64,000 nucleotides of DNA, taken from NCBI GenBank assembly GCA_016929095.1, contig JAFGJM010000022.1, forward strand, positions 1 through 64,000, in the 5' to 3' direction. The translations under genes were made by a program, and so were the position numbers. Positions 62,006 to 62,987 of the stretch are shown piece by piece. A model generated the notes under the pieces. The model made no database searches. It was not told the DNA's origin and saw nothing but the letters and a program-made list of their open reading frames with translations. Every line of letters begins with the position of its first letter. Position 1 is the first letter of the stretch. This DNA comes from Anaerolineales bacterium. GTDB taxonomy: Bacteria > Chloroflexota > Anaerolineae > Anaerolineales > UBA4823.

Positions 62006-62126
62006 AGAGAGATCAATTTTGATAAACAATAACAACCTCCCGCGGATTTCGCACATGTGGGAAGCTTTTTCTAAATCGTTCTCCAGCCTTCAATTACCCT
62101 AATTCACCGTATTTTTATACAAATAG

Positions 62127-62155
62127 TTGCATTATTTACAAAAATACTGTATAGT
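62127..62155 (+). promoter_or_regulatory. promoter of the selenoperoxiredoxin gene
   Basis: TTGCAT (62127-62132) and TATAGT (62150-62155) with exactly 17 bases between, in AT-rich surroundings. It would start transcription near 62162, giving a leader of about 70 bases. It also shows that a TTG at 62127 is not the translation start. Confidence 0.65.
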
Positions 62156-62231
62156 GAATAAGGCAAGCTTTACTGATTTTTATCGAATATCCTATTGTCG
62201 TAAATTACCAAAATACAGAAAGGAGAACCAT

Positions 62232-62933
62232 ATGCCCGAAATGAAGGATGGGTGTGTGAAACCCGCAGGCGGGGTGCTTTCACCCAAATCGCAAACTCCC
62301 CAACCATCAGGCGCGGTTCCAGTCCAGGAGGTGAAAAAGATGGTAGCCAGAGTAGGAAAAGAAGCGATTGACTTTGAAGCCAATGCCTTTGTGAAGGGAG
62401 TTGGGTTTAAACCCATAAAACTCTCCGATTATAAAGGCAAATGGATTGTGCTTTGTTTTTATCCGGGGGACTTCACTTTTGTCTGACCGACAGAATTAGC
62501 GGCGGTCGCCGCTCTCTATAAAGAATTTCAAGCCTTAGGAACAGAAATATTAGCTGCCAGCACCGATAGCCGTTTTGTGCACAAGATATGGCAGGAACAG
62601 GAACTCTCCAAGATGGTGGACGGAGGGGTGCCTTTCCCCATGCTATCGGACGCCGGCGGGAAAATTGGCGAAGTCTATGGGATATATGACGAAGCCGCTG
62701 GTGTGGACATCCGCGGCAGATTCATCATCGATCCTGATTTTGTAGTCCGCGCCATGGAAGTGTTGACCCCCGAAGTGGGGCGCAACCCCAAGGAAATGAT
62801 CCGTCAAGTGAAAGCCTTCCAGCATGTGGCTGCCACGGGCGAAGTGACGCCTTCCGGCTGGGAACCGGGTGGCAAAACCTTGACCCCAGGACCCGACCTG
62901 GTGGGTAAGGTGTGGGAAGTCTGGAAACCGTAA
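62232..62933 (+). CDS. selenocysteine peroxiredoxin (Sec at TGA 62484-62486)
   Basis: Thiol/selenol peroxidase of the AhpC/Prx1 fold, 233 residues when the in-frame TGA is read as selenocysteine (residue 85). The sequence around it, [16 protein letters not shown], is the family's peroxidatic-cysteine motif, and the frame continues with normal peroxiredoxin sequence ([25 protein letters not shown]). ATG 62232 has AAGGAGAA just before it. The usual resolving cysteine (VCPxxW) is VTPSGW here, so this is a one-Sec type; the only cysteines are Cys8 in a non-conserved N-terminal extension and Cys75. A SECIS-like hairpin follows the TGA. A stop mutation or sequencing error is the alternative. Confidence 0.9.
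62492..62517 (+). promoter_or_regulatory. SECIS-like hairpin directing selenocysteine insertion
   Basis: Perfect stem AGCGGC (62498-62503) / GCCGCT (62508-62513) with loop GGTC; AGA/TCT below can extend it past a small internal loop. The loop starts 17 bases after the TGA. The E. coli fdhF SECIS has the same GGUC in its loop 18 bases after the UGA, and SelB contacts this loop. The hairpin lies inside the coding sequence, as bacterial SECIS elements do. Confidence 0.85.
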
Positions 62934-62950: not shown

Positions 62951-62987
62951 CGACCTGTCAAACCACACATTGACAGGTCGTTTTTTT
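62951..62987 (+). terminator. intrinsic terminator of the peroxiredoxin gene
   Basis: CGACCTGTCAA / TTGACAGGTCG with an 8-base loop, followed by TTTTTTTATC, 17 bases after the stop codon. Confidence 0.93.

Follow-up and report, generated by a model that had tools for sequence, protein, structure and literature searches.

It is highly probable that the window, the whole 64,000-nucleotide stretch of Anaerolineales DNA that was analysed, carries a gene for the selenocysteine (Sec) peroxiredoxin PrxU, in which a UGA is predicted to be read as Sec with the help of a hairpin, and which has two likely starts, one for a long form whose extra arm contains a cysteine and the other for an AhpC-like short form. 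The gene is a member of the PrxU family, a kind of protein already known and earlier demonstrated once. The elements behind this reading, namely the UGA, the co-varying hairpin, the Sec machinery of the genome, the lost resolving cysteine, the arm cysteine and the putative inner Shine-Dalgarno sequence with its start codon, are all present at the sequence level. The Sec peroxiredoxin itself being known, the new part is the two-start architecture with a cysteine arm, which was not found in print: among the papers listed by a literature search with limited coverage of subscription papers, none dealt with an additional PrxU start or with an arm that resolves.

The gene was compared with relatives from two sources. 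A survey of 400 genomes of the phylum gave 14 with PrxU over the cut-off and 16 such loci, counting that of the window. Named species genomes were scanned as well and yielded at least 582 relatives, with PrxU pooled with other proteins of the AhpC type; the best 80 by whole-length score were used. The set of 95 Sec loci referred to below is made up of 13 of 14 phylum loci (window included, locus L025 excluded), these 80 named-genome loci and two plasmid loci. Armless relatives are under-sampled in it, because its 80 named-genome loci are the best whole-length scorers of at least 582. The features of the gene are the following.

62219 to 62225, + strand: Shine-Dalgarno sequence AAAGGAG for the long start ATG at 62232 (on average 6.80 matched bases across 94 loci of the family, taking the best start in range)
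62232 to 62933, + strand: prxU long form, an AhpC/Prx1-type frame of 233 aa (25.3 kDa), residue 85 being the predicted Sec
62232 to 62339, + strand: N-terminal arm of 36 codons ahead of the AhpC-like core, with the conserved motif G-C-V-K-P-A-x-G-P-I
62253 to 62255, + strand: arm cysteine Cys8 (TGT), shared by 94 of 95 loci (56 with TGT, 38 with TGC)
62326 to 62334, + strand: putative internal Shine-Dalgarno sequence AGGAGGTGA, five bases ahead of the inner ATG
62340 to 62342, + strand: putative internal start ATG (Met37), adjoining the AhpC-like core, for a predicted short form of 197 aa (21.6 kDa)
62454 to 62456, + strand: Cys75 (TGT), on the strand that precedes the active-site loop; all 95 loci have Cys here
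62484 to 62486, + strand: TGA at codon 85, predicted Sec85 at the peroxidatic position, in the frame context FTFV-TGA-PTEL
62498 to 62513, + strand: SECIS-type hairpin of 16 bases, marked by co-variation, with apical GGUC at 62504-62507, 17 nt after the UGA
62847 to 62849, + strand: Thr206 at the usual place of the resolving cysteine (T, M, A or L in 95 of 95 loci)
62951 to 62980, + strand: intrinsic terminator, an 11-bp stem followed by T7, from a terminator scan

Gene boundaries and family assignment

Translation table 11 divides prxU into two ORFs, of 119 and 118 aa, that share one frame. A first-pass annotation of this DNA had joined them into a single Sec peroxiredoxin gene framed by a promoter with 17-base spacing, a ribosome site and a terminator. 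The join is borne out by the single TGA at 62484-62486, which falls on the peroxidatic codon, 85, between the two halves, and AAAGGAG at 62219-62225 provides the expected ribosome site before the ATG at 62232. The terminator is also in place, with its stem at 62951-62980 and the T7 run, and counts as weak evidence alone because 1.3 such sites arise on average when the region is shuffled. The promoter was overstated and lacks support: TTGCAT-17-TATAGT at 62127-62155 matches 8 of 12 consensus bases, and a promoter scan around prxU returned none on the + strand and one on the − strand, against 1.9 expected by chance. The same annotation had passed over the PrxU name, the absent resolving cysteine, the cysteine arm and the second start. 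Upstream of prxU, an inverted repeat (86%) at 62106-62119 and 62137-62150 surrounds the putative −35 region and could be an operator.

The best family in NCBIfam is NF040737 (peroxi_PrxU), which the window protein matches with 371.1 bits against a cut-off of 270, while it stays below the cut-off of the AhpC equivalog TIGR03137 (183.1 bits versus 272). Its Pfam domains are AhpC-TSA and 1-cysPrx_C. The AlphaFold model (pLDDT 89.9) matches typical 2-Cys peroxiredoxins, the best PDB match being human Prx2 with a TM of 0.90 by target. Fold and active-site loop are thus common to the window PrxU and the typical 2-Cys AhpC/Prx1 proteins (TIGR03137; human Prx2, PDB 7kj1/1qmv), but the former differs by a Thr in place of the resolving cysteine, by the extra arm and by Cys75 where AhpC has Phe. 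The Sec peroxiredoxins of the PrxQ/BCP type (TxxU), described in PMC9312934 and PMC13188914, likewise have a thioredoxin fold with Sec at the peroxidatic position. They belong, however, to a subfamily other than that of the window PrxU, which scores 30.7 bits with the PrxQ model against a cut-off of 260.

Predicted decoding of the in-frame UGA

When relatives were aligned at residue 85, as the first-pass annotation had proposed, TGA was found at this same codon in 80 of the 80 best among at least 582 named-genome loci and in 15 of the 16 over-cut-off loci of the phylum, the exception being G089:C13. The protein beyond the TGA is conserved among the best 80, whose labels range over Chloroflexi/Anaerolineae, Desulfobacterales and other Deltaproteobacteria, Zixiibacteriota, Krumholzibacteriia, Acidobacteria, Actinomycetota, Armatimonadetes, Nitrospirae and others; these records are mostly MAG bins, and some of the taxon labels may be wrong. 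This conservation refutes for the family the idea that the TGA is a true stop in a decayed or mis-sequenced AhpC. Such an idea could appeal to the single base that separates TGA from TGC or TGT, and to the phylum locus L025 with its further core stop, yet the co-varying hairpin and the Sec machinery of the genome described below also speak against it, and for the window gene it retains only a very slight probability. The PrxU copy in question (L025, G367:C55), with a core stop in addition to the TGA, is either a decayed copy or an assembly error. Among the peroxiredoxin-like matches of the phylum that score below the cut-off, many others contain a single in-frame TGA as well, and further Sec peroxiredoxins of other subfamilies are therefore likely to occur there.

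In the protein databases, the active-site residue is given as Trp in 55 of the 96 proteins with a parsable motif, query included, out of 121 in the set. Taken at face value this would favour a genetic code in which TGA is read as tryptophan. Yet 15 of the 45 ORFs of at least 180 codons in the window end in TGA, which is otherwise an ordinary stop there, and there is no genome-wide reassignment. Moreover, the residue corresponds to the catalytic cysteine of AhpC-type relatives, a tRNA-Sec is present, and the Trp entries look like a choice of code made by gene callers. A tryptophan at this codon is accordingly the least credible of all the readings considered, with a probability close to nil. 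The best 120 database matches (P0002-P0121) recurrently show this annotation error, as Trp at the Sec site or as C-terminal fragments; the 145-residue C-terminal pieces among them agree with the earlier prediction that automatic callers would split the gene.

The genome that carries the window (3.9 Mb, 61 contigs, 87% complete) was searched for tRNA-Sec, selA, selB and selD, a test set beforehand, and all were found: tRNA-Sec with 72.8 bits (called SeC with anticodon tca by ARAGORN), selA with 541 bits, selB with 364 bits, and two selD genes. One of the latter (L014, G000:C20:4397-5332) has an in-frame TGA itself, so that its SelD is probably also a selenoprotein. By an RpoB segment, the closest to this genome among 50 named PrxU genomes, 46 of which gave a match, is an Anaerolineae MAG at 82%; this puts it in Chloroflexota and probably in Anaerolineae. 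Among the genomes of the best 80 named-genome loci, 50 were tested and 46 gave a tRNA-Sec over the cut-off, four giving none. This marker is not fully specific, because 5 of 14 control genomes, presumably not all of them known Sec users, were over the cut-off as well. Co-occurrence of PrxU with selA within the phylum was considered as evidence and set aside as uninformative: selA is found in 14 of 14 PrxU genomes, but SelA is common in the phylum regardless (56 of 66 PrxU-negative genomes).

According to the Fig. 2 legend of PMC13188914, the bacterial SECIS model consists of an N1-G-U-N2 loop with N1 and N2 paired, on a stem of at least 4 bp, located 16-37 nt after the UGA; the same source adds an energy below -7.5 kcal/mol and a G in the first two loop places. 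The prxU hairpin agrees with this model in its 17-nt spacing, its GGUC loop and an energy of -13.4 kcal/mol for 51 nt, and the apical loop in 94 Sec loci is GGUC, AGUU or, twice, GGUU. Mutual information among third codon positions downstream of the TGA (94 loci) ranks three hairpin pairs as the top 3 of 171, with values of 0.87, 0.77 and 0.55, the next pair reaching 0.23. On a tree of the 95 proteins, the same pairs changed together on the same branch 17, 15 and 12 times, versus 2.0, 1.8 and 1.3 expected, and pairing was restored in 43 of these 44 co-changes. Protein coding hardly explains this co-variation, because changes at these third codon positions are silent or almost so. Four Cys-type peroxiredoxin genes compared as DNA (one PrxU paralogue and three other AhpC-type genes) lack the hairpin, with 1-3 of its 7 pairs, versus 4-7 of 7 in 69 distinct TGA-type sequences. 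The folding stability of the window's hairpin region is unremarkable (z -1.5; 16 of 200 shuffles fold as well), and an Rfam search of the hairpin returned no SECIS family match, so the case for it is built on co-variation and the published model.

Cysteines of the arm and core

The C-terminal resolving cysteine by which typical 2-Cys peroxiredoxins are recognised is absent from the window protein. At that position the 95 Sec loci have T in 79, M in 13, A in 2 and L in 1, and cysteines after the Sec number none in 89 loci and one in 6. Replacement of the second conserved cysteine of 2-Cys peroxiredoxins reportedly served as a mark of PrxU already in the 2001 study. Besides the Sec position, the arm cysteine and Cys75 are the only conserved cysteines in the 95 loci. 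The arm motif (like D-G-C-V-K-P-A-x-G-P-I) is conserved in its amino acids, with third positions free. As there is no C-terminal cysteine for the selenenic acid, Cys8 of the arm is the best conserved candidate for a resolver, and in the long form it possibly replaces the lost one.

The phylum exception mentioned above, G089:C13:40668-41330 (L127), is a Cys paralogue whose genome encodes a Sec PrxU too. The arm motif, Cys75 and the hairpin are all missing from this paralogue; its residue 75 is Phe, and a cysteine stands two residues past the usual resolving place. Ahead of the core, its frame contains no stop for 48 codons and includes one cysteine in another setting, and only the core ATG has a Shine-Dalgarno sequence (GAGGAGAT). 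Likewise, residue 75 is F, I, Y or W in 31 protein records with Cys at 85; the arm cysteine was seen in none of the 21 parsable ones, 19 of which are short gene calls. Cys8 and Cys75 were nevertheless rejected as marks of Sec forms only: P0042-P0044, P0046, P0048 and P0049, with Cys at 85, keep both, and the pair is therefore not exclusive to Sec forms. From protein records by themselves Sec and Cys cannot be told apart, because U may be stored as C. These six records, in which Cys is shown at residue 85 and the arm cysteine is kept, have signal-peptide-like N-termini, and P0049 (Neorhodopirellula) is named selenocysteine-containing PrxU.

The probable second start and the two predicted forms

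A start codon lies within the nine codons up to the core in all 95 loci, the best one being ATG in 79, GTG in 15 and TTG in 1. Ahead of it, the inner Shine-Dalgarno sequence matches a mean of 7.05 bases, versus 5.10 (sd 0.16) in a null in which codons were shuffled silently with start codons kept, and none of 500 runs reaches the observed value. The mean match at 423 other in-frame ATGs, each taken singly and not as the best of several, is 2.92. These figures suggest that PrxU genes likely make both long and short forms from one mRNA.

Production of Sec PrxU from the upstream start only, with the inner Shine-Dalgarno sequence and ATG or GTG owed to chance or to a ribosome pause, is unlikely but deserves consideration. 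Shine-Dalgarno-like motifs within genes can pause ribosomes without initiating translation. The upstream start has a good Shine-Dalgarno sequence of its own (mean 6.80 bases), the arm is conserved as a peptide, a start codon somewhere in nine codons is weak by itself, and KE/QE codons themselves favour AGGAG, the silent-codon null standing at 5.10 already. The observed 7.05, however, exceeds all 500 silent-codon runs, and the excess persists in nine dissimilar representatives (<75% identity), with 7.44 versus a null of 5.00 that reaches it in 0 of 200 runs. A start codon combined with at least six matched bases occurs at 86 of 95 arm/core junctions; in the rest of the core, 32 of 1999 windows of nine codons show this combination. 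The motif lies in a different reading frame in 8 of 95 loci, where it encodes other peptides, and it is absent in 3 loci. Four residues ahead of the core, 83 of 95 loci have Met (63) or Val (20), and 16 of these 20 Val codons are GTG, against a background of 34% (p 3e-5); for a pause, a start codon would be unnecessary.

The opposite possibility, that only the short form is real and the upstream stretch is an untranslated or separately regulated leader, appears less probable still. Two observations would agree with it. The single locus of the 95 without arm, L124, has an unrelated frame that is closed by a TAG directly ahead of AGGAGGTGA and the inner ATG, and is a predicted natural short-form-only gene; and the published PrxU of Eubacterium acidaminophilum, now named Peptoclostridium acidaminophilum, is said to be a 203-aa protein with Sec47 whose N-terminus was sequenced, equal to the short form. 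Against this, the arm is open and carries its cysteine in 94 of 95 loci, G-C-V-x-P is kept while third positions vary (TGT 56, TGC 38), the arm start is preceded by a Shine-Dalgarno sequence, and NCBI annotation places the start of P. acidaminophilum prxU at the long start.

This prxU, which we take to be the once-demonstrated one of the 2001 paper, is 57% identical to the window PrxU over 99% of the protein, and shares with it the TGA at the same codon, an arm with a cysteine, Cys75, the lack of a resolving cysteine and an inner Shine-Dalgarno sequence. It differs in its phylum and in its location on an 808-kb plasmid. From the inner start it would give 203 residues (22.4 kDa) with Sec at 47, and from the long start 240 residues (26.6 kDa). 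The 2001 studies are said to have dealt with the short form only, and to have described a Cys mutant without thiol-dependent activity. Both plasmid copies of prxU, L130 and L129 (Chloroflexota plas-ZRK; the P. acidaminophilum 808-kb plasmid), lie near Mrp/NBP35-type ATPase genes. The 2001 paper is cited in PMC9312934, PMC13188914 and PMC8533274.

Returning to a gene with two products, SelB and tRNA-Sec would insert Sec at the UGA by way of the hairpin, and the selenolate would then attack H2O2 or organic peroxides. In the long form, the selenenic acid may be resolved by Cys8 of the arm, as conservation suggests; in the short form, Cys75 or an outside thiol may take this role. The resolved PrxU would then be reduced by thioredoxin, and a thioredoxin reductase gene is present in the window's genome. 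A Fur, rubrerythrin, ferritin-type, desulfoferrodoxin or rubredoxin-reductase-like neighbour was found at 19 of 82 loci, a raw count, neighbour families having been checked in Pfam with one representative per cluster. Such neighbours would fit peroxide defence in anaerobes. No conserved operon partner emerged, since no neighbour family occurs at more than 10 of the 82 loci when ORFs overlapping prxU are left out. A protein named PrxU is up-regulated under stress in Sulfobacillus thermotolerans, according to PMC7409299.

The finding extends the known PrxU family to an Anaerolineae-type genome, and its members are often mis-annotated, as shortened proteins or with a Trp in the active site. With a conserved second start behind a strong Shine-Dalgarno sequence, it may be that gene callers and earlier biochemical work each saw one protein of a pair and treated it as the complete product. 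It is conceivable, though we hold this only tentatively, that PrxU is a one-gene, two-protein system across many phyla, in which armed subunits that resolve themselves through Cys8 and armless subunits with one selenol would form mixed rings that set the dependence on outside thiols. If so, work on the short form only would explain the Cys mutant reportedly devoid of thiol-dependent activity. The cysteine arm would offer a testable answer to how a peroxiredoxin without a resolving cysteine turns over.
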